Source: Candidatus Abyssobacteria bacterium SURF_5 (GTDB lineage Bacteria; Abyssobacteria; SURF-5). Taken from it: a stretch of DNA of 16,273 bases. Numbering within the stretch: position 1 is the first letter of the stretch; the number at the start of each line of letters is the position of its first letter. Both the position numbers and the translations under genes were made by a program. Location of the stretch: positions 1 to 16,273 of the forward strand of contig QZKU01000015.1 in NCBI GenBank assembly GCA_003598085.1. Direction: 5' to 3'. Below the pieces are notes generated by a model. It made no database searches, was not told the DNA's origin, and saw only the letters and a list, made by a program, of their open reading frames with translations. Of this stretch, positions 1,807 to 15,900 are shown one piece after another.

Positions 1807-1819
1807 TTTCTTCATCCTT

Positions 1820-3202
1820 CTATGCCAGTAAGTGTTGGGGTTTTTCAATGCTTTCGATCAAGATGTCGGCGATGAACTTGGTGTGCATTCCCAATTTATA
1901 GAAACTGATGATCTGTTCGATGCCGCTGTGACAGTTGTGGCAGGGCGTGACAACGTATTTCGCGCCGGTCGCCTTCAATTGCTCGGCCTTCACGCGATTG
2001 CTGACCGCCCTGGATTTCGTCCACGGCGGGCCGCAGTTGATCGTGCCGCCGCCTGCCATGCAGCAGTAATTATGCTCGAACCGCGGATCGACGTCGCGAA
2101 AATCCTCGCACATCTCGTTCATGATGTAACGAAGCTGATGGTGCAATCCTTTCCCGCGGACCGTGTTGCACGGGTCCTGCACCGTGACCGGCTCCTTGAA
2201 CTTCTTTATGATCTTGATTCTTCCGGTGGTCAGCAGTTCATAGTACCACTCGATCGCGTGAATGAGCGGGACCGGCGGGAACCTCCACGACAACCATTTC
2301 GGGCCGTCGTAGGCGCCGCCGCGGAACGCGTGGCCGCATTCGCCCATCACGATCTTCTTGACTTTCAGGCGCAACGCGGTATCGTAATGCAGGCGCTCCA
2401 CCCGGGCCATCGTCTCGAAGTCGCCCGAATACATCGCCATGTTGCTGTTGTCCCAGCCATCGGTCGCCGGCATTGTCCAATCGACGCCGGCCACCGTCAT
2501 GATCTGCGACATATACGAGAGGAGCTGCGCAAGAATCTTCGGTTCGGGCGCGATCACCGAGTACATCACCTCGGCGCCTTCCTTATCCAGCGGGATGCGC
2601 GCCTTCGCCATCTCCATCTGCGCCTCTTCCTCCTGCCACTGGAGCGTATCGATCCATTCGTCCTGCTGCACCCACATCTGATTCATTGTGGCCGCATGGC
2701 TGTTGGTCGTGTCCTGGAGGTAAGCCGGCACCACGTTGAGCAGGTTTAGCATGCGGCGCACGACCAGCAACATATATGCGATATCGATCCCGAACGGGCA
2801 GTACATGCTGCATCGGCGGCACACGCCGCACTCGGTATACACGATGCGGGCGGCGTTCTTTATGAATTCCGCATCCACTTTGCCCTTGCGCTTCACCATC
2901 TCCCACAACGTGTTTTTCACTTTTCCGACCGGCGAAAAGTTCGGGTCCCTGTCACGCGACAGGAAGGTATGGCACGCCTCGGAGCAGAGTCCGCAGTGAA
3001 CGCACGTAGTAAGATACGCCTTCATCCGTGCGCCTTCGCCCTTGAGCACCTGGTTGATCGTCTTCTCTATCTGCTGGGGCGTCAGCTTCTTGATCGTCTC
3101 GTCCAGCCCCGGGTCCTTCACCATCTGCTCCGGCGTCAATTTGCTCCGGGCCTGCTCAGGAGCCGCCACCGCGACGGGCTGGTCATTTTTGGGTTCGGCC
3201 AT
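1820..3202 (-). CDS. tmcB: TmcB-like Fe-S protein with CCG domain (HdrD/DsrK family)
   Basis: This is a cytoplasmic iron-sulfur subunit of a Tmc-type transmembrane complex, related to heterodisulfide reductase HdrD, DsrK and HmcF. It has 460 residues and no signal peptide. Two [4Fe-4S] motifs are visible: C67-x2-C-x2-C-x3-C77 and C125-x2-C-x2-C-x3-C135. The C-terminal CCG domain is complete (C345, C380-C381, C421-x2-C424) and is the type that binds a noncubane [4Fe-4S] cluster for disulfide or thiol chemistry. The upstream CCG half keeps only one cysteine (C289), so a single catalytic cluster is expected. The ATG at 3202 is chosen over an upstream TTG because GGAGG sits 9 nt before it. It lies between tmcC (32 bp) and the multihaem gene (13 bp). 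HmcF is the main alternative, but the tmcC and tmcD neighbours favour TmcB. Confidence 0.85.
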   Translation of the reverse strand: MAEPKNDQPVAVAAPEQARSKLTPEQMVKDPGLDETIKKLTPQQIEKTINQVLKGEGARMKAYLTTCVHCGLCSEACHTFLSRDRDPNFSPVGKVKNTLWEMVKRKGKVDAEFIKNAARIVYTECGVCRRCSMYCPFGIDIAYMLLVVRRMLNLLNVVPAYLQDTTNSHAATMNQMWVQQDEWIDTLQWQEEEAQMEMAKARIPLDKEGAEVMYSVIAPEPKILAQLLSYMSQIMTVAGVDWTMPATDGWDNSNMAMYSGDFETMARVERLHYDTALRLKVKKIVMGECGHAFRGGAYDGPKWLSWRFPPVPLIHAIEWYYELLTTGRIKIIKKFKEPVTVQDPCNTVRGKGLHHQLRYIMNEMCEDFRDVDPRFEHNYCCMAGGGTINCGPPWTKSRAVSNRVKAEQLKATGAKYVVTPCHNCHSGIEQIISFYKLGMHTKFIADILIESIEKPQHLLA

Positions 3203-3234
3203 ACCAGATAACCTCCATTTCAAAGCTCAGCAAG

Positions 3235-3882
3235 TCACCAGTCTCGCGCATTCCTGACGAAACCGAACTCCGAGCCCATATACATTCTTGTGAAGACGAA
3301 ATACAGCATATGCGCCAGGCGCGTAAAAGGAATCGCGATCAGCCACAGCACGCCTGTAACGATGTGCAGAATAACCATAGTCTTGTACGCGAAGAATTGA
3401 TGATGCGCGATAAAGCCGGTGGCGAAAGGCGCCAGCACCACCGCAATCAGCAGATAATCGGAATAATCGGTGACGTTTCTCACCTCGGGCAGCCTGATGC
3501 GCCTCGCGATAAAGAACACGCCCCCGATCAGCACCATGATGGTCATGATATCCGCCGCCAGCGGCGGAAGAGTCCACCACGAAAGGCCAATAGCCTCCCG
3601 CAGCATCACCACGTGAGCCGTCAGCAAGACCGGCGTCGCAATCAGGCAGATATGGAATAAAAAAGTGACGACGGTCATCACCGGGTGCTTCCTCATGTTC
3701 ACGCTTGCGAACGGAACTATCCAGTGCAGAAGCGAGCGCAACCCGTACTTCAGGCTCATGTAGGGGTAAACAACCCGATCTTTCCGGGCGGTCACGAACA
3801 TCCACCCCAGACGATAGGCGCAGCCGCCGGCGAAGACGATGAATGCCAGCCAAACCAGTGGACCGCTCACAAATTCAAACAT
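3235..3882 (-). CDS. tmcC: TmcC-like cytochrome b membrane subunit
   Basis: This 215-residue integral membrane protein has about five hydrophobic segments (near 8-28, 68-92, 106-126, 143-162, 168-198), like the NarI/DsrM/HmcE/TmcC cytochrome b family. H77 and H90 in one helix and H173 and H191 in the last helix are spaced much as the paired haem b ligands of NarI, so two haems b are likely. Its expected role is to carry electrons across the membrane between the periplasmic cytochrome and TmcB. The gene follows tmcD by 20 bp with AGGAGA as ribosome binding site, and tmcB starts 32 bp after it. The TmcC name rests on context; family membership is clear. Confidence 0.82.
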   Translation of the reverse strand: MFEFVSGPLVWLAFIVFAGGCAYRLGWMFVTARKDRVVYPYMSLKYGLRSLLHWIVPFASVNMRKHPVMTVVTFLFHICLIATPVLLTAHVVMLREAIGLSWWTLPPLAADIMTIMVLIGGVFFIARRIRLPEVRNVTDYSDYLLIAVVLAPFATGFIAHHQFFAYKTMVILHIVTGVLWLIAIPFTRLAHMLYFVFTRMYMGSEFGFVRNARDW

Positions 3883-3902: not shown

Positions 3903-5219
3903 TTAGAGCAATTCCACAATTTCAACAATGCGGCGGATATATTTGCCGTCCTCAACACCGCGAACGAGGATTTTCCCGCCATCCGGACTGAACACCGGCT
4001 CCCACAGCATCTGGAAATTCTTCCGCCACAATCTGCCGTTTATGGCGATCGAGAACCTGCCGCCTCGTTCAACTTTGGCGATGACTATTTTGCTGTCGGG
4101 GCTGAACGCCGGATTCCACACCATCTCGAATGTTTCGGTCCACGGCTCGCCGTTCACCGCAATCGTCCATCGATTGTCTTCCTTCACGATCGCCGCCACG
4201 CGCTTGCTGTCGGGCGAGAAGAACGGCTCGAGAACGCAATCGCTGTAGGTCTTCTCCCACGCGACATCGTCAACGGCAATTGTCCATTTTCCAAAAATCG
4301 GAGCCGCAACCGCGGCGATACGGCTTCCATCCGGGCTGATCTTCTGGCGCCAGAGCTGATCATACTCTCCGCTCCAGAGCCTGTGCCCGTCCTCGACGAG
4401 CACCCACGACTTGCCCACACGCGCCGGAACGAGCACGGATCCGCCTTCGGGACGAAAGAGCGGTTCCCAGATACAGCCAAACGTCTGCTGCCATGGCCGC
4501 CCATCTTTCACTATCGTGTATTCGCAGGTGCCGAGCCGAACCTCGGCCGCCAGATGGCGTCCGTCGGAATTGAAAGCGGGCTCGTACACATTGATAAAGT
4601 TTCGATCCCACTGCTTGTCATTGACCGCGATCGTCCACGTGCCGTCCATGAAACCGAAAATGTCCGCTTCTTTCAAAGGAACCGGCTGCACGATGGCCGC
4701 AACTTTTTCGCCGCCCGGACTCACGGCGATTCCCCGGCAGGACACATATGAATTGGTCCACGACGCGCCGTTTACGACCACGCTGTACTGCATGTCGCGC
4801 TTCGTCTGGGCCGCGATCGTGCCGCCGTCGGCGCTGAAAATCGTGTTCCAGATATACTCGAAGCGTTCCTCCCAGGGCTCGCCCTCGACCGCAACGGTCC
4901 ACGCATCGTCTGCGCGTACGAGCGCCGTGAGCCTTCCGTCCGGCGAGAACCTGATGTACCATGCCTTCTCGAAAGCCTGCTCCCACGGCTCGCCGTTCAC
5001 GCATATCGTGTACTGCCCGTCCTCGGTTTTCACCGGCACGGCAATCCGCTCTCCGTCCGGGCTGACGGAAAACTCATGCACCTCGGGAAATCGCTCCCTC
5101 ATCTCGACGAGATCGGCAATCGCTTTTTCCGAAGTTTCCCAGTCCCAGGAGTCCATCCCGGGTACCGCGGGCTTCACCACCGGCTCGGCCGTCTTTGCGT
5201 TAACAGAAGAGGCATTCAT
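3903..5219 (-). CDS. tmcD: TmcD-like repeat (beta-propeller) protein
   Basis: This 438-residue protein has no signal peptide or membrane segment, so it is expected in the cytoplasm. After about 45 residues it contains ten repeats of roughly 40 residues. Each has a core like W-x-x-x-F-S-P-D-G followed by a beta strand, then a W-T-I-A-V-N-G-E-P-W type segment. The pattern is that of PD40/WD40-like propeller blades. Tmc complexes include a subunit of this kind (TmcD), whose function is not established. Ten blades is more than a usual seven- or eight-blade propeller, so it may form two propellers or some blades may be imperfect. It lies 12 bp after the small membrane gene and 20 bp before tmcC. 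GAGGA upstream of the ATG supports the start. Confidence 0.78.
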   Translation of the reverse strand: MNASSVNAKTAEPVVKPAVPGMDSWDWETSEKAIADLVEMRERFPEVHEFSVSPDGERIAVPVKTEDGQYTICVNGEPWEQAFEKAWYIRFSPDGRLTALVRADDAWTVAVEGEPWEERFEYIWNTIFSADGGTIAAQTKRDMQYSVVVNGASWTNSYVSCRGIAVSPGGEKVAAIVQPVPLKEADIFGFMDGTWTIAVNDKQWDRNFINVYEPAFNSDGRHLAAEVRLGTCEYTIVKDGRPWQQTFGCIWEPLFRPEGGSVLVPARVGKSWVLVEDGHRLWSGEYDQLWRQKISPDGSRIAAVAAPIFGKWTIAVDDVAWEKTYSDCVLEPFFSPDSKRVAAIVKEDNRWTIAVNGEPWTETFEMVWNPAFSPDSKIVIAKVERGGRFSIAINGRLWRKNFQMLWEPVFSPDGGKILVRGVEDGKYIRRIVEIVELL

Positions 5220-5474: not shown

Positions 5475-6737
5475 TCAGTTATTCAATTCATGCTCTCGCG
5501 GGAACAGGTGCAGATATCTATACGAAAGAGAGTAGACAATCCCCCCATATCCGAAAACAGCAAGTGCGACCGTCCATTCCTGCCATGTGGGGTAATACGT
5601 CATGAACCGCTCGAACGGCAGCACCGGAATCGAGAGCGTCTGAATCGTCATGACAAACCGGTTCAGCACGACTCCCAAACAGATAAACAGGCATCCGAAA
5701 ACGAGCGAGATGTCGTAATCGCGCGCTCGCGGGATCAGCAGCAAGACCGCCGGCACGAGCCCGAACACAAACAATTCGAGGAACAGGATCTCCATCCCGT
5801 ACGGCCCTTCATAGAACTTTGTGAACCTGAAACCGCTTGCCGGCACAGTCACGTTCGCCCAGTAAATGGTGTCGGCCGCCTTTAATACGAGATACACTGC
5901 AAACAAAGTCGCCGACAATTTCGCAAGCCGCGACAGCGTCGAGCGAGGCACCAGCTTTCTTCCCGTCACCTTTTGCGTCAGCCAGACCACCAGCGTCGTC
6001 AAAGCCGGGCCCGATGCGACCGCGGAAAGGATGAACAGAAAAAACGTCCACGGCCAGATGCCGATGCCGGTCCGATACGAGAACGGGCGCGCGTACAGCA
6101 CGCCGAACATCCCGCCGAGCGACCCCTGATGGAAGAACGAAAGGAATGCGCCTACGAGCGCGAAGACCGCCATGATGCCGTGCAGGTTCTCGCCGAGATA
6201 TTTGAACAGAGGAAGCCGGCTGAGCGTCCTGTTCTCGGTGATCAGCGGAACGAACTCGATCGTGAGCACGAACAGATAACACGTGATGCAGAAAATGACT
6301 TCGGTCAGCATCGAATGCACGTTGGCGTGCATGAAACTGAAATAGCCCCTGAGCGGCTGGCCGATGTCGATGGTCAGCATGCCGACCGCACCGCTGTAGC
6401 AGATGAAACCGATCACCACGGCGGCCCCGATCAGGTCCTTCAAGAAATCCAGCTTCAGAATGTAAAACAGGAATCCGCTGAAGAAGGCGCCGGCGCCGAG
6501 TGCGATGATGGCGAGGTCCACGCAAATCCACAGCCCGAACACGAAATAGTTGTTCATGCCGGTCTGATTCAATCCCTTCCACAGGCACAGAAATGCGCCG
6601 AGCACTCCAAGCGCCAGCAACAGCGCCCAAAAGCTCAGCCAGATTAGAAATTTCTTCGTCGAGCAGCGCTCCAGCTTGAAATGTTCGTGGTGCTCGACCG
6701 CGTGTTCGAGTGTGATATGTTCGACAAGTTCTGTCAT
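5475..6737 (-). CDS. qrcD: QrcD, NrfD-type quinone-interacting membrane subunit
   Basis: This is the integral membrane subunit of the Qrc complex, which passes electrons between periplasmic cytochrome c3 and menaquinone. It has 420 residues and about ten transmembrane helices, typical of the NrfD/PsrC/ActC family. The HQGSLGG motif (203-209), D74 in the second helix, D124, H141, H186 and N359-R360 are of the kind used for quinone and proton handling in relatives. The His-rich N-terminus (residues 7-19) is cytoplasmic or flexible. It starts 4 nt after the qrcC stop with only a weak ribosome binding site, suggesting translational coupling. NrfD subunits occur in many complexes; the four-gene order A-B-C-D supports Qrc specifically. 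Confidence 0.88.
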   Translation of the reverse strand: MTELVEHITLEHAVEHHEHFKLERCSTKKFLIWLSFWALLLALGVLGAFLCLWKGLNQTGMNNYFVFGLWICVDLAIIALGAGAFFSGFLFYILKLDFLKDLIGAAVVIGFICYSGAVGMLTIDIGQPLRGYFSFMHANVHSMLTEVIFCITCYLFVLTIEFVPLITENRTLSRLPLFKYLGENLHGIMAVFALVGAFLSFFHQGSLGGMFGVLYARPFSYRTGIGIWPWTFFLFILSAVASGPALTTLVVWLTQKVTGRKLVPRSTLSRLAKLSATLFAVYLVLKAADTIYWANVTVPASGFRFTKFYEGPYGMEILFLELFVFGLVPAVLLLIPRARDYDISLVFGCLFICLGVVLNRFVMTIQTLSIPVLPFERFMTYYPTWQEWTVALAVFGYGGIVYSLSYRYLHLFPREHELNN

Positions 6738-6741
6738 GGTT

Positions 6742-7491
6742 TCAACTCAATTTCGTTGCCGTTTCTTTGACCCAGATGCGGGAGCTGAGATAATAGACCT
6801 TCGGCTCGGTATGCAACTGTTCGAGCAGCCGGAACGCGCGCGGGCTATGGGCAAGCTGAGCCACTTTGTGCTCGGGATCGTTCAGATCGCCGAAATGCAT
6901 CGCGCCGACCGGACACGCCTCGACGCACGCCGGCACGTACTCGTCCTCTCTCAGGTAATTCCGCGCCTCATTCTGGGCCTTGTTCTTCGCCTTGAGATAC
7001 CGGTGTGAGCAGAACGTGCATTTCTCGACCACTCCGCGCATGCGCGGGGCGACATCGGGATTCAACTGCCGCTTCATCTCGGCGGGCCACACCGGGTCCC
7101 ACCAGTTGAAGCAGCGAACCATGTACGGGCAAGCCGCCATGCAATAGCGGCAGCCGATGCAGCGCGTGTTGATCTGATCGACGATGCCGGTGCTCGCGTC
7201 GTAGTTGGTTGCGCTCGCGGGACAGACCGAAACGCACGGCGTGTGATGGTCGCATTGCATGCACGGCCGCGCGAAATAGGCCGCGCGCGCCTTCGGGTAG
7301 CTCTCGCCGTTGTTCACCCGATATACGCGCATCCACGCGATGTTCCTTGATTTGTCGCTCTCGTCAACGCGAAACGGGACGTTGTTCTCCATATGGCAAG
7401 CCACTGCGCACGCGCCGCAGCCGGTGCATAAGTCCACGTCTATAACCATGCCATATCGGACAGGCGCAATTTTCCCGTTCCCGTTGTTCAT
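6742..7491 (-). CDS. qrcC: QrcC, periplasmic ferredoxin-like Fe-S subunit
   Basis: This 249-residue iron-sulfur protein of the PsrB/HmcB/DmsB family conducts electrons between the cytochrome or QrcB part and the quinone site in QrcD. Four cysteine groups are visible: C22/25/28/32, C77/80/86/90, C111/114/117/121 and C158/161 with C189/193. It has no signal peptide of its own, as expected for a partner co-exported with the Tat-signal protein QrcB. It starts 4 nt after the qrcB stop (TAATGAAATG), with AAGG about 10 nt upstream, and qrcD follows 4 nt later. Confidence 0.9.
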   Translation of the reverse strand: MNNGNGKIAPVRYGMVIDVDLCTGCGACAVACHMENNVPFRVDESDKSRNIAWMRVYRVNNGESYPKARAAYFARPCMQCDHHTPCVSVCPASATNYDASTGIVDQINTRCIGCRYCMAACPYMVRCFNWWDPVWPAEMKRQLNPDVAPRMRGVVEKCTFCSHRYLKAKNKAQNEARNYLREDEYVPACVEACPVGAMHFGDLNDPEHKVAQLAHSPRAFRLLEQLHTEPKVYYLSSRIWVKETATKLS

Positions 7492-7495
7492 TTCA

Positions 7496-9850
7496 TTACG
7501 CCTTTCTTATCTTGCCCGGTGTTTCACGGTAACAAAGCAAGCCGCTGACGGGGTCCTTGCCCGCGTCCAGCAACTGATACGCGTTCACGCCCTTGTTGCG
7601 AAGGAATTGATCGTAGGCGCTGTGGCCGAAGCCCAGAGGAAACAGCACCACGCCCTCGCGCACGTCAGCGGAACAATGGATGCGCACGCTCACTTTTCCG
7701 CGCGGCGACTCCAAGACCACCCTGTCTCCCTCCTCGAGCCGCTTGTAGATCGCGGTGAGCGGATTGATCCGCACGGAGAGTTCCTCTTTCAGCAAAACGT
7801 TGTCGTGCACCTGCTTGAGCAGGAAAGGAGGTGTGCCCTGGCCGGCGCCGGCAACAATTACCAACTCCTCCGGCATGATGAGCAGATCGAAGCCTTCCGG
7901 CGGCAACGCCGGCGCCACATAATGCGGCTGGCATTCGATGTCGCCGCTGAAAGGAAGCGTCGCCTGCAGCGTCTTGCTGTAGAACTCGAATTTGCCGGTC
8001 GGGGTTCGTGTCTTGATCGCATGGTCGACGGGCGGCTCGAACCAGCACCCGTTCTTGTACAGAGCCCGCCAGAAAACGGAAAAAGTCGGATATCGCTCAT
8101 GCAGAGATTTCGCCGCGCCGGTCGACTCCGCCTCCGGGTCATTCACCTTTCCGCGCCCGGCCTCATAAATCGATTCGGCGCGCCCCTTGAGAATCTCGGC
8201 AAATGAATTCCACGGGAATGATTCCGCCACCGATCCGCCAAGCGCATGGGCGACCTGGATGACGATGTCGCCCGCGCCCATCGTGTCGAACAGGGGATTT
8301 GAAAGCGGGCGGCTCAGATTGTAAACCGGCTGCGGGAAGCCCTCGATGCCGATTTGATCGTCCCATCTCTCGAACGGCGCAGGCAGGGGAAGAATCAGGT
8401 CCGCGCGCGTGGCGCTCTCGTCCATGTACGTCGACAGGCTGACGATATACGGGACTTTTACAAAGAGATCCGAATGCCGCTCCGGCAGGACATAGTGCGG
8501 GTTCGTCTCGTGTATCAGCAGCATCTCGATCTGGCGCGCGTCGATGTCGTGAATCAAAGAGTGCGTCAGCGGGTAGCGCGAGCTGTCGGCGCCGTCGCAC
8601 CGGGCCAGCCGAAGTCCGCGCTCGGCCTCCGCATCCTTCTTCACCGGCGGGAGTGATTCGAACGGCGGTTGCCCCTGGTGGACAAAGCCGCCGGCCTTGT
8701 CCATGTTGCCCACAAGCGCATTGAGGCTGTGGATCGCCATCAGCGCGTACATATCCGGCCATCGGTCGCCGCGACCTCCGCCGCCAACGGCTATGGCAGG
8801 CTGCAGCGAAGCGAATCGATGCGCAAGCTTCTCGATTTCTCGCGCGGGAACTTTCGTAATCTTTTCAACCGCCTGCGGCGAGTATCTCGCCATCACGTTC
8901 GATTCGAATCCCGCACGCAGGTTTCCGCTGATGTCCTTCCAATCCTTGAAGCCGAAACAGCGGTGCTCGATAAACGGCCTGTCATGCAGCCGGTCGCGGA
9001 TCAGAACATGCGCAATTCCGAGCGCAAGCGCGGCCTCCGTTCCGGGATAAATCGGAATCCAGCGGTCAGCCTGGTTCGCGGTGCTCGAGAGGTTCGGCTC
9101 GATCTGAATGATTTCCGGCCGTTTCCCCTCAGGATGGTGCATCCAGCCCGAATACGCGTGCAACATCCGCCCGAACGAGCCCCACCCCTCGAAGAGGCTG
9201 CATCCAAAACTGAGGATGCAGCGGCTGTTTTCTATGTCGTAAGCGACGGCGTTCGTGCCGTGCATGATTCCGTACATGACTTCGGCGCCGTCCGCCGGCG
9301 AATAGGCATGAATGAAATTGGGCGAGCCGACCGACTCCAAAAACCGCTCGAGAAGCTGATTGACGGTGCTGTTGTCATTGCGCGAGATGCAGGCGAGCGC
9401 ATGCGATTTCTCCGAGGCGCGCAGTACGGATATCCTTCCGGCAAGCTCTCGTATCGCCTCTTGCCAGGAGATCTTCTCCAATGATGCGCCCCGTGCGGCG
9501 CGTCTCAATGGAGTTTCAATCCTGGAAGGGCCATACACCATTTGCAGCGATGCGACACCGAGCGGGCAGAGCGACCCGCGGTTGACGGGATGATCGGCGT
9601 TTCCATCCACCCGAACCAGCCGGTCGTTCACCTTGCGCACGGAGACGCCGCAGCCGGCGCCGCACATCCTGCAGACGCTGTTTTCCCGCGACGGATCGCC
9701 CGGCAGCGGAGTCGGCACCCACGACCAGTTCTGCGTCCAGAACGCGACGTCGCGCAGAAGGTACCACGGCGCCGGCGACAGCATCAGCCCCATCGCCGCC
9801 CCTCCTGCGACCGACATCCCCATCATGAATTTTCGTCTGTCGATTTCCAC
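7496..9850 (-). CDS. qrcB: QrcB, molybdopterin-oxidoreductase-family subunit
   Basis: This is the large periplasmic subunit of Qrc, 784 residues. The N-terminus DRRKFMMG followed by a hydrophobic stretch is a Tat signal. C60, C63, C67 and C95 form the N-terminal Fe-S site of the DMSO-reductase family. In characterised Desulfovibrio Qrc this subunit contains no molybdenum cofactor and acts as a scaffold. Consistent with that, I see no obvious Cys or SeCys ligand in the segment HAYSPADGAEVMYG, where family enzymes usually place it. The start is a GTG, supported by AAAGG 8 nt upstream; the next ATG (residue 9) would remove the twin arginines. It lies 35 bp after qrcA. Confidence 0.9.
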   Translation of the reverse strand: MEIDRRKFMMGMSVAGGAAMGLMLSPAPWYLLRDVAFWTQNWSWVPTPLPGDPSRENSVCRMCGAGCGVSVRKVNDRLVRVDGNADHPVNRGSLCPLGVASLQMVYGPSRIETPLRRAARGASLEKISWQEAIRELAGRISVLRASEKSHALACISRNDNSTVNQLLERFLESVGSPNFIHAYSPADGAEVMYGIMHGTNAVAYDIENSRCILSFGCSLFEGWGSFGRMLHAYSGWMHHPEGKRPEIIQIEPNLSSTANQADRWIPIYPGTEAALALGIAHVLIRDRLHDRPFIEHRCFGFKDWKDISGNLRAGFESNVMARYSPQAVEKITKVPAREIEKLAHRFASLQPAIAVGGGGRGDRWPDMYALMAIHSLNALVGNMDKAGGFVHQGQPPFESLPPVKKDAEAERGLRLARCDGADSSRYPLTHSLIHDIDARQIEMLLIHETNPHYVLPERHSDLFVKVPYIVSLSTYMDESATRADLILPLPAPFERWDDQIGIEGFPQPVYNLSRPLSNPLFDTMGAGDIVIQVAHALGGSVAESFPWNSFAEILKGRAESIYEAGRGKVNDPEAESTGAAKSLHERYPTFSVFWRALYKNGCWFEPPVDHAIKTRTPTGKFEFYSKTLQATLPFSGDIECQPHYVAPALPPEGFDLLIMPEELVIVAGAGQGTPPFLLKQVHDNVLLKEELSVRINPLTAIYKRLEEGDRVVLESPRGKVSVRIHCSADVREGVVLFPLGFGHSAYDQFLRNKGVNAYQLLDAGKDPVSGLLCYRETPGKIRKA

Positions 9851-9885: not shown

Positions 9886-10524
9886 CTATTTATGACAAAT
9901 GAAACATGCAGTGCTCGTCCCGCGCGCGCGGTGGCACGAGGCGCATTCGTCCATCCGCATCGTCCCCCACACCTTCTTCCCTTTTTCACTCATGATGGTG
10001 AACGCGTTCAATGGGACGCGCGAATCGTACATGACGTAGCTGTAGTTCGTGATCCGGTTCGAATGGTACTCGGTAACGTCGGAATAGCCCTGCGGGCCGT
10101 GGCACGTCTGGCATGAGATGCTCGCCATCCGAACGTGCGAGGAATGCGAGAACGAGACGCATTCGGGCTGCCGGTTGTAAATCGCCCATTTCGGCTCGCG
10201 GTTCCTCTTCACGTATTCGTTGACGAACCTGATCTCCGCCGGCGTTGTCCCTATCGGCTCCTCGTGGCAGTCCGCGCAGATTTCCAGCGCCGGCAAACCC
10301 GCCCAGCTTCCGTCCTCGTGGAAGAAGTGGCAGGTGTCGCACGCCAGACCCAGCTTCTCCACGTGCAGAGGATGATTATCATCAACCGGCTGCATCCGCG
10401 TCTCATAACTCAGCTTCGGCAACACCAGCCAGCCAAGCACAAGAAACGCGACGAAGCCTGCGAGCACCAGGGCGGCCGCCATTCCGAACGTCTTCTGCGC
10501 ATCTGTCAGGTTTCTCACGTGCAT
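9886..10524 (-). CDS. qrcA: QrcA, membrane-anchored multihaem cytochrome c
   Basis: This is the cytochrome subunit that receives electrons from periplasmic cytochrome c3 in the Qrc complex. It has 212 residues: one N-terminal transmembrane anchor (about 13-36), then a periplasmic domain with five CXXCH sites (C62, C83, C138, C194, C207). Desulfovibrio QrcA is reported as hexahaem. Here only five canonical sites are present, plus a lone C122 inside CVSFSHSSH. The ATG at 10524 has AAAGGTG 8 nt upstream, and the preceding open frame has no signal sequence, so the longer reading is rejected. It is the first gene of the nine-gene operon, with a predicted 22-nt leader from a sigma54-type promoter. 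Confidence 0.9.
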   Translation of the reverse strand: MHVRNLTDAQKTFGMAAALVLAGFVAFLVLGWLVLPKLSYETRMQPVDDNHPLHVEKLGLACDTCHFFHEDGSWAGLPALEICADCHEEPIGTTPAEIRFVNEYVKRNREPKWAIYNRQPECVSFSHSSHVRMASISCQTCHGPQGYSDVTEYHSNRITNYSYVMYDSRVPLNAFTIMSEKGKKVWGTMRMDECASCHRARGTSTACFICHK

Positions 10525-10556: not shown

Positions 10557-10572
10557 GGCAAAAACTGTGCCA
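10557..10572 (-). promoter_or_regulatory. Sigma54 (-24/-12) promoter for the qrc-tmc operon
   Basis: On the minus strand the sequence is TGGCAC-AGTTT-TTGCC, a near-perfect match to the sigma54 consensus TGGCAC-N5-TTGCW with the exact 12-bp GG-to-GC spacing. The predicted start is near 10546, giving a 22-nt leader that holds the qrcA ribosome binding site. This is strong evidence that the operon needs RpoN and an enhancer-binding activator. Confidence 0.85.
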
Positions 10573-10675
10573 TCGATGCGCGCAAGGTGACAAGCGACTG
10601 CAAATCACACGATATTGCTAGCAAAACAATGGAATGCCGCACTGCGTCATACATTCTTTCCGCCTGCATTCGCAT

Positions 10676-10731
10676 CGTTGCCGTGGCGTGTTCTCCGGCA
10701 ACGCGACGTTGCATGCAACGAAACCTGCAAC
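10676..10731. promoter_or_regulatory. Putative shared enhancer with GTTGC/GCAAC half-sites
   Basis: Five GTTGC or GCAAC half-sites fall in 55 bp. CGTTGCC (10676-10682) and GGCAACG (10697-10703) form an inverted pair. CGTTGCATGCAACG (10707-10720) is a perfect 14-bp palindrome, and a further GCAAC lies at 10727-10731. The cluster is 130-185 bp upstream of the predicted qrcA start and 138-193 bp upstream of the predicted start of the divergent gene, a normal position for a sigma54 activator site. The same half-sites occur before the activator gene at 14309-14416. Confidence 0.7.
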
Positions 10732-10842
10732 GAGAAGGCCGCCTCAGAAGGCCGGCGAAAAAGAGAGACGCACATCGAACGCTTCAAATGAATATACGGC
10801 ATTTTCCGGTTCCGCTCGTGCGCGCCGGCGACTGAAAACGCT

Positions 10843-10858
10843 TGGCATAGTTATTGCC
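10843..10858 (+). promoter_or_regulatory. Sigma54 (-24/-12) promoter for the NifX/DUF1847-UspA operon
   Basis: The sequence TGGCAT-AGTTA-TTGCC starts at 10843 and keeps the exact 12-bp GG-to-GC spacing (GG at 10844-10845, GC at 10856-10857). The predicted start is near 10869, about 60 nt before the GTG start codon at 10929. It points away from the qrc promoter, and the two share the enhancer cluster between them. Confidence 0.75.
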
Positions 10859-10928: not shown

Positions 10929-11873
10929 GTGAAGGTGGCTGTTCCTCTTTTCGGGACGCGGGTTTCGCCCCGATGGTCCTATTCGCAGAACACGTTGCTC
11001 GTTCATCTCGCCGACGACCGCGAGGTCTCGAGGAGAATGATCGATACCTCCGGCTTGAGCGAGGAAGAACGGCTTTCCCAACTCGTTGACCTCGAGGTCG
11101 ACCTCTTCGTCTGCGGCGCGATCGAAGAGGAATACATCGACCTCGCGGGCTCCTACGGACTGCAGGTTGTCCATAACGTTGCAGCCGAGGCCGATGAAGT
11201 CGTTGCAGCCGCGCTGCGCGGCAAGTTGCACAGTGGATTCGGGCTGGACGGCGATATGGCCGAAGACGCCGCCCAAGCGGGCAAGCTCCTGGCGCGAGTG
11301 CGCCCGAAGATCGATTGCGTCGAGTGCGCCGACCGCGTATGCCTGAAGGGGGCAAACTGCACCAGCGAATTCGGAGATGTTTTCCCGGTCGAAAAATACG
11401 CGAAGCTGCATCATTCGATGGAGGTGACCGCGGATATCGCGGCTGAGAATCATCGCAGACTGTGCCGTGTCGCCGAATTCATCTACTATTGCCTCGGGAT
11501 GGAATACAAACATGTGGGCATTGCGTTCTGTGTCGAGATGTTCCAGGAGACCGAAATACTCACGCGCCTGATGCGCCGGTTCTTCAAGGTGAGTCCCGTC
11601 TGTTGCAAGGTCGGCGGCTATATGAAGCCGGACTTCTATACATCCTCGAACGGCGTCGCCTGCAATCCGATCGGGCAGGCGCGCGTTTTAAACGGGATCG
11701 AGACTGATATCAACGCCCTCGTGGGCTTGTGCGTCGGCTGCGACCTCATCTTCACGCGGTACAGCAAAGCGCCGGCATCAACGTTATTCGTCAAGGATAA
11801 ATCTCTGGCCAACAACCCCGTGAGCGCCCTGTACTCCAAGTACTACATCGACGAGATATTGAAGGAGCTGTGA
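10929..11873 (+). CDS. NifX-like domain fused to DUF1847 metal-binding protein
   Basis: This is a 314-residue, two-part protein with no signal peptide. Residues 1-105 (MKVAVPLFGTRVSPR...) resemble the dinitrogenase iron-molybdenum cofactor fold (NifX/NifB-tail/NafY). Residues 125-314 resemble DUF1847, a Cys-rich putative metal-binding family: C130-x2-C-x4-C138-x5-C144, then C201, C225-C226, C245 and C268-x2-C271. No reaction is known to me for DUF1847. The start is the GTG at 10929, where GAGGG lies about 8 nt upstream and the NifX-like domain begins directly; an in-frame ATG at 10878 has no comparable support. It is divergent from qrcA with a sigma54-type promoter, and a UspA-like gene follows 33 bp later. 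A metal or redox-related role alongside the electron-transfer operon is inference. Confidence 0.8.
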   Translation: MKVAVPLFGTRVSPRWSYSQNTLLVHLADDREVSRRMIDTSGLSEEERLSQLVDLEVDLFVCGAIEEEYIDLAGSYGLQVVHNVAAEADEVVAAALRGKLHSGFGLDGDMAEDAAQAGKLLARVRPKIDCVECADRVCLKGANCTSEFGDVFPVEKYAKLHHSMEVTADIAAENHRRLCRVAEFIYYCLGMEYKHVGIAFCVEMFQETEILTRLMRRFFKVSPVCCKVGGYMKPDFYTSSNGVACNPIGQARVLNGIETDINALVGLCVGCDLIFTRYSKAPASTLFVKDKSLANNPVSALYSKYYIDEILKEL

Positions 11874-11906: not shown

Positions 11907-12467
11907 ATGACGACCGTAGGATTGGACAGCGTCGGGCTCTGCGCCCATTTCTCGGAAAAAGGCGATTGGGCATTTGACTTTGCGTTCGCGCTGGCGCAAA
12001 AGAACAAGTGTCAGTTGAACATTTTCTACTTCCTCAGATCTCCGTACGAAAGATATTCCGAACCGCCCAACCAAGGAAGAAAACTGGATGATCAAATCCT
12101 CATCGCAACCGACCGAAAGCTCCGGGAATACTACGACAAATGCCTGGGCGAGTACGTCGACGTCGGCTTCAAGGTCTGCGAGGAGAGCAGGCACGCGAAG
12201 GAACTGAGGACGTGCCTGATGCATCGCGAGTATCAGTTGCTGATCATTCCTCACCTGGAGAAAGGCATCACGTTCGGCAATATCCCGATCGAGGAATTCG
12301 CGTACCGGTTCACCGCGCCGGTCGTGCTGGTGGGACCCGACAGGCCGAACCAGTACCATCTGAATCCGTCGGCAACCCTGCTGGCCGACAAGCTGGGCCT
12401 GAGCCAGGACGATTTCCACGAGATCTATCTCGATGAGATCGGGAAAGCCCCGGCCGCTTTGTCGTAA
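11907..12467 (+). CDS. UspA-like (universal stress protein fold) protein
   Basis: This 186-residue soluble protein shows an alternating beta/alpha pattern. An early strand-helix (VGLDSVGLCAHFSEKGDWAFDFAFALA), LNIFYFLRSPYER, YQLLIIPH and APVVLVGP match the order of elements in the universal stress protein fold, and the ending lies about where UspA domains end. The usual nucleotide-binding G-x2-G-x9-G(S/T) signature is not clear, so ATP binding is doubtful. A strong GGAGG is 7 nt before the ATG. It is 33 bp after the NifX/DUF1847 gene and probably co-transcribed with it. Homology is judged by pattern only. Confidence 0.65.
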   Translation: MTTVGLDSVGLCAHFSEKGDWAFDFAFALAQKNKCQLNIFYFLRSPYERYSEPPNQGRKLDDQILIATDRKLREYYDKCLGEYVDVGFKVCEESRHAKELRTCLMHREYQLLIIPHLEKGITFGNIPIEEFAYRFTAPVVLVGPDRPNQYHLNPSATLLADKLGLSQDDFHEIYLDEIGKAPAALS

Positions 12468-12507
12468 TCGGAGCACAGTCCCACGAGTTGCAAGGGGCTT
12501 CTCCCAG

Positions 12508-12546
12508 CCTTTATCCCCCCTTTATCAAAGGGGGACCAAAGGGGTG
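12508..12546. repeat. CCCCCTTT...AAAGGGGG repeat, copy 1
   Basis: CCCCCTTT-ATC-AAAGGGGG (12516-12534) is a perfect 8-bp inverted repeat followed by ACCAAAGGGG. A second copy lies at 12631-12669. The type resembles a repeat common in environmental bacterial genomes. Sitting between two convergent genes, it may act as a two-way transcription stop, although no T-run follows. Confidence 0.7.
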
Positions 12547-12587
12547 CCATCCAGGAGCGCGGAACAAAACAATGATTCCCGATGGAG

Positions 12588-12607
12588 GGGCACGGCGGGC
12601 CGTGCCC
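12588..12607. repeat. GC-rich hairpin between the two repeat copies
   Basis: GGGCACGG and CCGTGCCC form an 8-bp stem around CGGG. A smaller stem (GGCGT/ACGCC, 12613-12626) follows. Both are non-coding and could help terminate the converging transcripts of the UspA-like gene and the activator gene. Confidence 0.6.
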
Positions 12608-12630
12608 GAAAAGGCGTGGCGACGCCAGAA

Positions 12631-12669
12631 GTTTCCCCCTTTATCAAAGGGGTACTGAGGGGGAATTTA
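12631..12669. repeat. CCCCCTTT...AAAGGGG repeat, copy 2
   Basis: This is a second copy of the 12508-12546 element: CCCCCTTT-ATC-AAAGGGG (12635-12652), then TACTGAGGGGGAATTT. The two copies are in the same orientation about 120 bp apart. Confidence 0.7.
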
Positions 12670-12689
12670 CATGCGGCACAGGTGGTCGG

Positions 12690-12832
12690 CGTTCTCTGCG
12701 CCTTTGCGGTGAAAAAAGCCAGTCAAGACGGCGAGGGCTCTTCGTGCCTCCGGGCCTTCGTGGTTAATCTTTAATCCAAAACATGTCTCAGACCCCGATC
12801 CGGGATCCAAAATTGAAAATCCAAAATCCTCT
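12690..12832. other. Non-coding stretch with word-like repeats
   Basis: This stretch holds ctctgcgcctttgcggtg (12694-12711), ttcgtgcctccgggccttcg (12741-12760) with tggttaatc after it, and a tandem of atccaaaattg/aaaatccaaaatcc (about 12807-12831). These are degenerate intergenic repeats related in style to those at 103-175 and 14533-14549. I see no real gene in 12468-12844; the ORFs there are repeat-derived. Confidence 0.5.
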
Positions 12833-12844
12833 GGCGCTCCCCTT

Positions 12845-14185
12845 CTACTCTATCCCGTACTTCTCCATTTTCCGCCACAGCGTCGCCCGGTGCATTCCCA
12901 GCTCTTCCGCCGTTTTCACGCGGTTCCCTTCATTCCGCGCGAGCGCCTCGCGAATGATCGATTCCTCCGAGCTGCTGCCATGGCACAAACGGGAGGCGCC
13001 GTTCTCCTTCTTCTGCGCCGCCTCCAGTATCCGGTCGGGCAGATGCTCGAGCCCGATCACGTTCTTCCTGCAAATGACGAATGCGTGCTCGATCGCGTTC
13101 TCGAGCTCGCGTACGTTCCCGGGAAAATCGTAGCGCCGCAGAAGATTCAGGACTTCTGTCGTTACTCCCTGGATATCCTTCTTTCGTTTCGATCGAAACT
13201 TCTCCACGAAATAATCGATCAATAGCGGAAGATCCTCGAGCCGCTCCCGCAACGGAGGAATCTGGATATTGATCACATTGATGCGGTAGAAAAGGTCCTC
13301 GCGAAATGCCGATTGCTCGACCATCTGCTTGAGGTCCCTGTTCGATGAGGTGATGATGCGGGCGTCCGTCTGCAGCATCCGCGTCGAGCCCAGCGGCTGA
13401 TATTCGCCATTGTTCAGCACCCTGAGCAGCTTCACCTGCAGAGACAACGGCATATCGCCGATCTCGTCCAACAACAGTGTGCCGCCTTGCGCCATGTAGA
13501 ACAGGCCGGGCTTGTCCCGCTTCGCGTCGGTGAATGCGCCGCGCACATAGCCGAAGAGTTCCGACTCGAGCAGCGTCTCGGGAAGAGCGGCGCAATTGAT
13601 GCGGATATACGATTTATGTTTGCGGGGACTCAGGTCGTGCAACGCCTGCGCCAGCAGTTCCTTGCCCGACCCGCTCGGCCCCTGGATGAGCACATTGCAT
13701 TCCGACTCGGCGATCTCCGGCAGCAGCTTGAAGATCCGCTGCATCTTCTCGTTGCAGCTCACCAGGTTCTCGAACCGGTTGATCTTCGACACCTGGTCCT
13801 GCAGATTCTCGATCTCCGACAGGTCCCGGAAAAACTCGACCGCGCCGATGCAGGTCTTCTTCTCGTTGCGAAGAACCGTGGTGCTCACGCTGATCGGCAC
13901 CTTGCGCCCGTCGCGCGTCACAATCGTTACCCGTACATTCGTGATCGGCTTTCCGTTCTGCAACGTGTTGCGAAGCGCGCAACCCGTCTGGCACAGGTCG
14001 GTCCGGAAAATGTCGAAACAGAATTTGCCGATGGCCTCCTCTCGCCTGAACCCCGAAATCTCCTCGGCCGCCCGATTAAAAGAAGTGATCCGACACTCGT
14101 GATCGGTCGTGAATACGCCGTCGGTGATGCTGTCGAAGATGATTGCTGAAATGTCCTTCTGGTCCTGCAATGAATCGTTTGCCAT
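12845..14185 (-). CDS. PAS-AAA+-Fis sigma54-dependent transcriptional activator
   Basis: This 446-residue enhancer-binding protein works with RpoN. It has an N-terminal PAS domain (about 10-125), an AAA+ sigma54-interaction domain (about 140-375) and a C-terminal Fis-type helix-turn-helix (about 405-446, [20 protein letters not shown]). Walker A is GPSGSGKE (169-176) and Walker B is [12 protein letters not shown] (234-245). The sigma54-contact loop reads GAFTDA (216-221) instead of GAFTGA, a variant I believe also occurs naturally in such regulators. There is no receiver domain, so it should sense its signal directly through the PAS domain, which carries C56, C65 and C69 (CQTGC) plus C31 and C112. 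Three sigma54-type promoters with similar upstream sites lie in this window, one before this gene, so local control and autoregulation are likely. The ribosome binding site is weak (TGGAAA). Confidence 0.93.
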
Positions 14186-14248
14186 TGTGTTTCCATTTCT
14201 TGATCAAAAGTGGTCCCAAAACCCAGTTGCCCTCACAATAACATAAAG

Positions 14249-14264
14249 AGCACATAGCATGCCA
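14249..14264 (-). promoter_or_regulatory. Sigma54-type promoter for the activator gene
   Basis: On the minus strand, TGGCAT-GCTAT-GTGCT matches TGGCAC-N5-TTGCW with the exact 12-bp GG-to-GC spacing. The predicted start is near 14238, giving a leader of about 53 nt before the ATG at 14185. The match is a little weaker than at qrcA, but the upstream half-site cluster at the usual distance supports it. Confidence 0.65.
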
Positions 14265-14308
14265 CTTCAAGGTTTTCGCGGGTAAACGGGTCTGTAACTC
14301 CTTGATGA

Positions 14309-14428
14309 GCAACCGACAATGCAACGAAGTGGCGGGTGCGACGCGACCTGCGACAGTCGCTGAAAGGTTGCGCGCATGCAACATTTGCAACGCGATTGAA
14401 GTTGCGCCACTGCAACGCCGTCGCACCC
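14309..14428. promoter_or_regulatory. Putative enhancer of the activator gene (autoregulation)
   Basis: Seven GTTGC or GCAAC half-sites lie here: GCAAC at 14309, 14321, 14378, 14387 and 14412, and GTTGC at 14367 and 14401. Two inverted pairs share the same GTTGC-N6-GCAAC spacing (14367-14382 and 14401-14416). They lie 129-178 bp upstream of the predicted start, the same distance as the enhancer at 10676-10731 from its promoters. GGGTGCGACG (14334-14343) and CGTCGCACCC (14419-14428) form a wider 10-bp inverted repeat around the two pairs. Confidence 0.65.
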
Positions 14429-14730
14429 ACGACATTCTTCATCCGCTGACTTCCAAGCGCGGAAAGCTTTCTGTCCTGATTTGTTGTGTAAGTCCATGAT
14501 AACCATTCAGATAGATCCCTTCTTCCTTTTCAATCCAAAATCGAAATTTGGTTGCGGCTCCGCCGCGCTGTGGAATCTGCGGATTGCTCTCTTTGCCGGC
14601 GTTCGGCGGGTGAGAAAAGAAGCCGGGCGACCCCACCGGGTCGCCCCTACGGAAAGAAACGCGGCGGCGGCATCGTCCCGCCGTCAATATCGCAAACGCG
14701 GATCGCTCCTATGGTGCAGAAGTAAGACTC
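14429..14730. other. Non-coding stretch between regulator control region and arylsulfotransferase gene
   Basis: No convincing gene is present. It holds a CCAAA...TTTGG word (about 14533-14549) and the strong hairpin at 14625-14646. Other GC-rich pieces such as ggcggcggcatcgtcccgcc (about 14662-14681) look like intergenic repeat debris. Confidence 0.45.
14625..14646 (-). terminator. Strong hairpin, possible terminator of the arylsulfotransferase gene
   Basis: GGGCGACCC and GGGTCGCCC form a 9-bp stem around CACC. On the minus strand the stem is followed by GGCTTCTTTTCTC, about 85 bp past the stop codon of the 14731-15900 gene. It could act as a terminator. The same hairpin word resembles a dispersed environmental repeat, so both readings stay open. 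Confidence 0.45.
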
Positions 14731-15900
14731 CTACGGAAGCGGCGGCCAATCCAACGGAACCAGGTGTGCTCTATAAATGGTATTGACGGTAAGCACCTGC
14801 ATGTATTTATAGAAAAAGGGATTGATATACTCCCATACGATTTCGCCCTCGCTGGTGACCTGAAACAGGCGTCCTGATTCTCCTTCGTCAATGAAGGTGT
14901 TGCCATTGGGCAGACGCTGTGCTGAACTGATAAAAGCACTAAAAAATGTGTCCGGATGCCGCCCGGAGATGGCCGCAAGATATTTCCAGACCACCGTTTT
15001 CCGGACGGGGTCGATCTCGACCACCCGGGAATATAATCTGGCTTCCTCGGGATACCCGCCTCTTCCGCCATTGTCGAAGACGAGGATGTTTCCTGCACCC
15101 GGCAATCCGAGAGGGATCATCTTGGCGTCATGTTGCCCGATGGTCTGATTGTCGTCGGGTCCGCATTTCCAGACGATCGTGCCGGTGCTCTTGTCGATGA
15201 TGAAGATGGTGTTGGTGTGCCTTTGGCTGACCAAAATATTTCCCGGCCTGAACCTCGGGTCGCCGAGCAGATTTTCAGGCAGAGTATGTATTGAATTGGT
15301 ATGAGACCAGTCGCCTCCTCTCTCGTCAATCAAACGCCTCGCCAGAGCGCTGAACCCGAACTCGCTGAAGTGATCGCTCGTGTACCATTCCCAAACAATA
15401 TTGCCCTGCGGATTAACTTCAATTATAAAGTCGTCCCATATTTCCTTTGAAGAGATGTCGGGGACGATTCGCAGTTTCCTGCATAACAGGAGAGTGTTCC
15501 CGTTTTCGAGCCGCTCGAAATCATGATGAACGACCAGCTCATTTTTATCAAACGAGACGCTCCAGACGAGATTACTATTCCAATCGAGCTCGACCAGGCC
15601 GGTCATGGTAGCCGTCTCTGCGGTTGAGAGAATCGATCCATTGTCCAAGGGCTCCATGTAATCAAGTGAATACGGGCCGCCGGTCCAGCTATGAACCACC
15701 TCGCCATCCATATCGACCAAAAGAATCTGATGTCCCGCCTGAAACATGAAGTAGCCCTCGAATGTTGTGGCAGGCTCGTGAATCGTGGTGCCCGTTGGAT
15801 AAATCGTTGGAGAGGCATAGACGCGTGACAGCCCGAGAACGGCCAGCAAACCGAAGATAATGATCGCTGCAGCAAGGATTCTCCTGTCCAAAACCTTCAT
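14731..15900 (-). CDS. Exported arylsulfotransferase (ASST)-family protein
   Basis: This 389-residue protein has an N-terminal signal or anchor (about 8-29), so it should be periplasmic or membrane-attached. The rest shows propeller-like repeats (DNGSIL, ENGNTLLL, G-NILVS, GNILVFDNG, PNGNTFID) typical of the arylsulfotransferase family. Candidate active-site histidines occur in the expected contexts: H125/H126 in VVHHDFERLENGN, H200/H205 in DWSHTNSIHTLPEN, H228 near SQRHTN, and H257 in GQHDAKMI. Family enzymes move a sulfate group between aryl groups without PAPS. Many members with this short layout are uncharacterised, so the substrate is unknown. AAGGAGG lies 6 nt before the ATG. No DsbA/DsbB-like partner is adjacent. 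It has its own promoter and seems unrelated to the sigma54 genes. Confidence 0.75.
   Translation of the reverse strand: MKVLDRRILAAAIIIFGLLAVLGLSRVYASPTIYPTGTTIHEPATTFEGYFMFQAGHQILLVDMDGEVVHSWTGGPYSLDYMEPLDNGSILSTAETATMTGLVELDWNSNLVWSVSFDKNELVVHHDFERLENGNTLLLCRKLRIVPDISSKEIWDDFIIEVNPQGNIVWEWYTSDHFSEFGFSALARRLIDERGGDWSHTNSIHTLPENLLGDPRFRPGNILVSQRHTNTIFIIDKSTGTIVWKCGPDDNQTIGQHDAKMIPLGLPGAGNILVFDNGGRGGYPEEARLYSRVVEIDPVRKTVVWKYLAAISGRHPDTFFSAFISSAQRLPNGNTFIDEGESGRLFQVTSEGEIVWEYINPFFYKYMQVLTVNTIYRAHLVPLDWPPLP

Follow-up and report, generated by a model that had tools for sequence, protein, structure and literature searches.

Clustered GTTGC words mark a predicted autoregulated sigma-54 regulon at the qrc-tmc locus of Candidatus Abyssobacteria bacterium SURF_5

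A sigma-54-type promoter requires an activator, and the described system closest to the one considered here is DVU2106/OrpR with the orp operons of the anaerobe D. vulgaris. DVU2106, whose loop reads GAFTDA (PMC4641369), activates two divergent sigma-54 operons through palindromes at -131 and -88, and it acts as a repressor at the sigma-70 promoter of its own gene (PMC3897727). For a second Desulfovibrio regulator, DVU3142, sigma-54-dependent control of the Ohc electron-transfer operon was predicted (PMC4641369). In sulfate reducers with Hmc, Tmc and Qrc clusters, qrc stands apart from tmc, proteomics shows Qrc to be constitutive, and in Desulfococcus multivorans regulators and a universal stress protein gene are found near hmc (PMC5109826, PMC11887813). 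Neither a report of sigma-54 control of qrc nor any paper on DUF1847 was found in the literature searched, which covered few subscription journals.

The window, by which the whole analysed stretch of 16,273 nucleotides is meant, belongs to an uncultured lineage whose published members are without dissimilatory sulfite reductase (PMC6121073). Like DVU2106/OrpR and the orp operons (PMC3897727, PMC4641369, PMC6345978), the locus combines a one-component sigma-54 activator carrying GAFTDA with divergent sigma-54 operons in an anaerobe, and a NifX/ORP-like gene is among the predicted targets. It differs in that the predicted targets are Qrc-Tmc or Hmc-like membrane complexes, in that the candidate sites are clusters of short words whereas OrpR has one palindrome per promoter, and in that the activator gene has a sigma-54 promoter of its own whereas that of OrpR is of the sigma-70 type with negative feedback. 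As in the DVU3142/ohc system, a one-component sigma-54 activator adjoins its predicted target, a transmembrane cytochrome electron-transfer complex; there, however, the complex is OhcABC, the activator gene is divergent from the target and the loop is GAFTGA, not GAFTDA. The complexes encoded in the window are those of the Hmc, Tmc and Qrc clusters of sulfate reducers, with the difference that qrc and tmc stand together.

Promoters and word clusters in the window

The activator gene and the elements upstream of it are the following.

12845-14185, minus strand: sigma-54 activator (bEBP) with PAS (CX8CX3C), AAA+ with GAFTDA and Fis-type HTH; Pfam PAS, Sigma54_activat and HTH_8
14226-14230, no strand assigned: eighth GTTGC/GCAAC word, a short way past the predicted start (about +10 of the transcript)
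14249-14265, minus strand: activator -24/-12 promoter, GTGGCATGCTATGTGCT at 14265-14249, GG-N10-GC, 10/13 consensus positions
14309-14416, no strand assigned: cluster of seven GTTGC/GCAAC words, two N6 pairs among them, as candidate upstream activator sites

The protein is a bEBP by its domains (Pfam Sigma54_activat 1.4e-65, HTH_8 3e-13), and its loop is like that of DVU2106. The promoter on the minus strand fits the -24/-12 consensus only moderately; it places the transcription start at about 14238, upstream of the ATG at 14185. At the same position the sister genera G001 and G002 (Ca. Abyssobacteria SURF_17) have TTGGCACAATCCGTGCA and TTGGCACAATATGTGCA, respectively. A basal source of activator is needed, and none was found, the search for a sigma-70-like site of the activator gene nearby having given no match.

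Exactly seven words lie within 14249-14428, at 14309, 14321, 14367, 14378, 14387, 14401 and 14412, where 0.45 would be expected in 201 bp (P 5e-7). Their spacings are N6, N9, N4, N6 and N7, and the two N6 pairs, GTTGCGCGCATGCAAC (14367-14382) and GTTGCGCCACTGCAAC (14401-14416), lie 129-178 bp upstream of the predicted start.

Further to the left within the window, two operons diverge from a region with words of the same kind.

262-1848, minus strand: multihaem cytochrome, HmcA-like towards its N terminus and TmcA-like towards its C terminus
1820-3223, minus strand: TmcB, NCBIfam TmcB 700 bits, under the 735 cut-off
3235-3882, minus strand: TmcC, NCBIfam TmcC above cut-off
3903-5219, minus strand: TmcD-like beta-propeller protein (PD40), probably TmcD by its place between QrcD and TmcC
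5475-6737, minus strand: QrcD, NCBIfam QrcD above cut-off
6742-7491, minus strand: QrcC, 390 bits with NCBIfam QrcC, slightly short of the 400 cut-off
7496-9850, minus strand: QrcB, NCBIfam QrcB above cut-off
9886-10524, minus strand: QrcA, NCBIfam QrcA above cut-off, probable ATG at 10524
10557-10573, minus strand: qrc-tmc operon -24/-12 promoter, ATGGCACAGTTTTTGCC, 10/13, conserved in G001 and G002
10677-10731, no strand assigned: five-word candidate site cluster shared by the two divergent promoters, with GTTGCATGCAAC at 10708-10719 as its core
10842-10858, plus strand: NifX-DUF1847/USP operon -24/-12 promoter, TTGGCATAGTTATTGCC, 10/13, conserved in G001 and G002
10929-11873, plus strand: NifX-like and DUF1847 protein, probable GTG start at 10929, DUF1847 2.5e-33
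11907-12467, plus strand: universal-stress-protein-like (USP-like) protein, weak Usp match (E 0.3)

The qrcABCD-tmcDCB-cytochrome operon thus lies to the left of 10524, with all four qrc genes adjacent and in order, and the NifX-DUF1847 and USP-like genes lie to the right of 10929. In NifX-DUF1847 orthologues the Nitro_FeMo-Co match is weak and below the cut-off (2e-5, 0.003). The USP-like protein has orthologues in the sister genera (75-76%) and in G295 (45%), where the gene stands between those for NifX-DUF1847 and the activator. The cytochrome unites its HmcA-like part (residues 22-375; NCBIfam HmcA 257 bits, under the cut-off) and its TmcA-like part (residues 421-502; NCBIfam TmcA 130 bits, above the cut-off) in one protein of 528 residues. 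All three window promoters have GG-N10-GC in a TGGCAC-N5-TTGC-like context, each with 10/13 consensus positions, and their positions are conserved in the two sister genera.

The preliminary description had given the activator gene its own -24/-12 promoter, seven half-sites and two N6 pairs 129-178 bp upstream of the start. The promoter and the seven words are confirmed where they were first noted, and both pairs were located at these distances, with one correction of spacing. The description had also matched the distances with those at the divergent promoters; this holds, since the 10677-10731 cluster is upstream of both predicted starts, by 138-192 bp for NifX (start about 10869) and by 131-185 bp for QrcA (start about 10546). 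The claim of a shared word and geometry stands for the word, the clustering and the distance and falls for the N6 spacing: identical geometry is true of distance and clustering only, because the words at 10677-10731 are separated by N16, N5, N2 and N7, with no N6 and with GTTGC-N2-GCAAC as the core. This core is present in the divergent region of all three genera, and the string occurs just 4-5 times per genome.

Some other elements of the window were recorded beside these. An arylsulfotransferase-family (ASST) protein is encoded at 14731-15900, upstream of the activator promoter region, with no sign of regulon membership. The gap at 12468-12844 between the USP-like gene and the activator holds a short ORF, 12433-12774, which, judged by SPLYQRGTKG and SPFIKG in its translation, is more likely a dispersed repeat than a gene. 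A GC-rich hairpin, GGGCGACCC...GGGTCGCCC followed by CTAC, at 14619-14655 also looks like a dispersed repeat, because near-copies sit in intergenic regions of L205 and L206.

Rarity of the clusters and their recurrence in other genomes

Genome-wide counts came from pattern searches of the 5.1 Mb SURF_5 genome that covered every arrangement of three words separated by gaps of at most 30, the lists being merged by reading. At least five words within 60 bp occur at only three places, namely the two window clusters and C35:6441-6487, and no cluster of five or more words was present in 10 Mb of third-order Markov-simulated sequence. The search thus answers the concern that such clusters might be frequent at random genome sites, as dense ones were met only at the two window regions and at one redox operon.

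The N6 pair was rejected as a conserved unit, since it shows no genome-wide enrichment (8 occurrences in 5.1 Mb vs 7 of the reversed control), is absent at 10677-10731 and, among the compared regions, recurs only at the activator of G001. Two of the eight pairs lie 34 bp apart at the window activator; the N6 sites on contigs C111 and C128 are isolated, with no good promoter nearby. A fixed spacing rule was also discarded: from one word start to another a distance of 12 recurs at five loci and one of 9 at four, and this recurrence is only marginal by permutation (P 0.05). The spacing between words varies (N2, N6, N7, N4, N8), which is unusual for a fixed dyad. No match to WATCARNNNNTTR as an IHF site was found in any region.

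The third cluster (L191:5791-5837) packs six words, two of them overlapping, into 47 bp between another PAS activator (48% identical) and an Hmc-like operon. This operon encodes an HmcF/DsrK-like protein with TmcC/HmcE-like, HmcB-like and HmcC-like subunits, as well as response regulators and a histidine kinase, and its -24/-12 site is weaker (9/13) and at the right distance. In G001 and G002 the C35-type operon and its promoter are kept and the words are absent; because these orthologous promoters are without words, the Hmc-like operon has seemingly been added to the regulon in SURF_5, whose regulon probably includes it. The C35-type activator promoters share a different motif, approximately ACAACAT...TGACATGTCTCA (about L205:2690-2730, L206:4330-4400 and L191:5690-5740), which is presumably the own site of the C35-type activator.

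In G001 and G002 the order activator, USP, NifX-DUF1847 and qrc is retained, with tmc where the contig allows. The same word recurs between the same divergent sigma-54 promoters in both, as the preliminary description's reading of a local regulon would predict, and all nine promoters (three in each of three genera) are of the -24/-12 kind with words upstream. Words are present at the activator's own promoter in 3/3 genera. In G001 the cluster is more distant from the NifX start (241-261 bp) than in the other cases. When k-mers were counted without bias in the six regions, GCAAC/GTTGC came first of 423 5-mers (28 vs 3.4 expected, P 8e-17) and GTTGCA first of 898 6-mers (16 vs 0.78 expected). 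The held-out regions of the two sister genera alone gave 16 words vs 2.4 expected (P 6e-9), whereas seven sigma-54 promoters that belong to other activators of these genomes, taken as controls, gave 7 vs 3.1 expected, with no clear enrichment.

The survey was extended to 386 genomes, with a threshold of E under 1e-160 for the activator clade. Full-length NifX-DUF1847 and a clade activator occur in the same 6/386 genomes (Fisher P 2e-13, a value inflated because these related genomes represent three lineages and not six independent cases). Loci noted in this connection are 10929-11873 of the window, L215, L234, L235, L232 and L233. Three of the six genomes, G258, G295 and G008, represent two further phylum-level lineages, G008 being of the same genus as G295. 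In these three NifX-DUF1847 and an HmcF/TmcB-like operon again run in opposite directions from a pair of sigma-54 promoters, between which lie six words in G258, five in G295 and four in G008. Pooled, these three regions, which are independent of the discovery, gave 15 words vs 2.2 expected (P 1e-8), and GTTGCA was their top 6-mer (15 vs 0.71 expected, P 2e-15). In G295 the NifX-DUF1847, USP and activator genes lie on one strand, and sigma-54 sites at 5892 (minus) and 6244 (plus) flank five words at 6040-6086. The activator gene of G258 lies on another contig and lacks both a cluster and a sigma-54 promoter; autoregulation is therefore not universal. Across 17 promoters the main clusters centre at about -90 to -260 from the predicted start. 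Second copies of NifX-DUF1847, present in SURF_5 (G000) and G002, stand back to back with an Hdr-like operon, again with sigma-54 promoters.

The activator clade and its recognition helix

Tree building with 26 activators placed the window protein together with its orthologues (83% identity to that of SURF_17), the paralogues on C145 and C21 and the G008 protein (support 100/99), next to the orp-cluster activators and the C35 type. G258 and G295 are outside this tree and were covered by an alignment of eight clade members, in which C56, C65 and C69 of the PAS domain and the helix HR-x-TLWRK are invariant; the corresponding helix is HKTTLWRK in the orp type and SRNTLWRK in the C35 type. A 14-row clade that includes an orp-cluster activator (support 100/99) has GAFTDA and CX8CX3C throughout, which makes the window protein a member of an OrpR-type clade as judged from the orp-cluster activators in the tree.

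The orp cluster of SURF_5, assigned from DUF134-like, NifX-like and Mrp/MinD-like genes recognised by eye from sequence, has its own activator, 52% identical to that of the window, and the recognition helix of the window activator differs from that of the orp-cluster activators of the same genome. The window activator adjoins qrc-tmc and not an orp (ORP/Mrp) operon. It would therefore work like OrpR without being OrpR, since a separate paralogue sits in the orp cluster. In G001 the qrc activator shares a contig (L037:1-8285) with the orp cluster, which has an activator of its own and is only about 5 kb away; this suggests local duplication of activators.

No word clusters are present at the orp-type or C35-type promoters of G001 and G002, those of the activator genes included. 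G001 carries the words, though no 76-78% paralogue was detected in it (genome 92% complete). Because the words follow the clade and G001 is without a detected paralogue, the window activator is the likeliest binder, and the C145 paralogue may share sites with it.

Proposed regulation and alternative explanations

The sites upstream of the activator's own sigma-54 promoter are of the same motif as those at the neighbouring operons. Control of the activator gene itself, of qrc-tmc and of the NifX/DUF1847 operon, as predicted in the preliminary description, is supported by the promoters, the rarity of the clusters and their conservation together with the activator. Very probably, the activator switches on its own gene, qrc-tmc and NifX-DUF1847/USP through clustered GTTGC words. 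The Fis-type HTH of the OrpR-like activator would most likely recognise GTTGC(A) words in clusters that, for the most part, precede the starts of -24/-12 promoters by 100-220 bp. From the 10677-10731 cluster it would drive qrc-tmc leftward and NifX-DUF1847/USP rightward, and from the 14309-14416 cluster its own gene, giving positive feedback; activation would be self-reinforcing because the activator's own promoter is sigma-54 dependent. By established sigma-54 biology the activator would oligomerise on the words, loop to the closed complex 100-200 bp away and open it by ATP hydrolysis. The CX8CX3C PAS domain may sense the redox state, perhaps with an Fe-S cluster, so that Qrc-Tmc would be made when the redox state of the cell calls for it. 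An Fe-S PAS sensor is said to have been reported for OrpR by Fievet in 2021. The three invariant PAS cysteines, the redox nature of the targets and the kinship with OrpR suggest that the signal is probably redox.

The words could be bound partly or mainly by the 78% paralogue on C145, or by both proteins, in a two-activator network in which self-control is not strict autoregulation. The recognition helix of this paralogue (MHRVTLWRKM) is nearly the same as that of the window activator, and in G002 four words precede its own start, at -172 to -138; in SURF_5, however, only two scattered words are found at the paralogue promoter and only two in its NifX/Hdr-like intergenic region, and in G001 the activator and divergent promoters carry words with no paralogue detected, so this arrangement is considered unlikely. 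It is rather less likely that the activator at its own gene mainly limits its own synthesis, as DVU2106/OrpR does in D. vulgaris by repressing a sigma-70 promoter (PMC3897727). Downstream words would suit such a role, being present at +10 here, at +29 in G001, at +10 and +28 in G002 (where a further word is at -11) and at +19 of the G002 paralogue, and those at +10 to +29 at four activator promoters may act as a feedback brake; they were noticed after the fact, however, the main cluster is at the usual activating distance and the promoter is of the sigma-54 type, with no sigma-70-like site found nearby.

There is a small chance that an unrelated DNA-binding protein recognises the words and that the activator uses another site. 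Binding by the activator is here a prediction, and variable spacing and orientation resemble the sites of other regulators, but the words track the activator clade across three phylum-level lineages and are absent at the conserved promoters of sister activators. That the clusters are due to chance or composition, or are decoys of the -12 element, is very improbable and is already largely refuted. GTTGCA does contain the TTGCA of the -12 consensus, but decoy -12 elements were rejected as few words have GG 10 bases upstream, and the simulation and the conservation in sister and distant regions speak against chance.

The preferred reading remains activation by the window activator through the clustered words. 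A wider proposal, tentative and held with some doubt, is that the activator and NifX-DUF1847 form a cross-phylum signalling pair. The sigma-54 activator would sense redox through an Fe-S PAS domain, NifX-DUF1847, as a metal-cofactor protein, would modulate the activator or report on it, and the two would jointly choose the membrane electron-transfer complex (Qrc-Tmc, Hmc-like or Hdr-like) via clustered GTTGC enhancers. Little is known of how anaerobes decide on the timing of Qrc, Tmc and Hmc complex formation. The analysis yields a named candidate regulator, a word and a short list of promoters for this decision in an uncultured lineage, with the same module in two other phylum-level lineages, and DUF1847 gains a firm genomic association with the control of redox operons.
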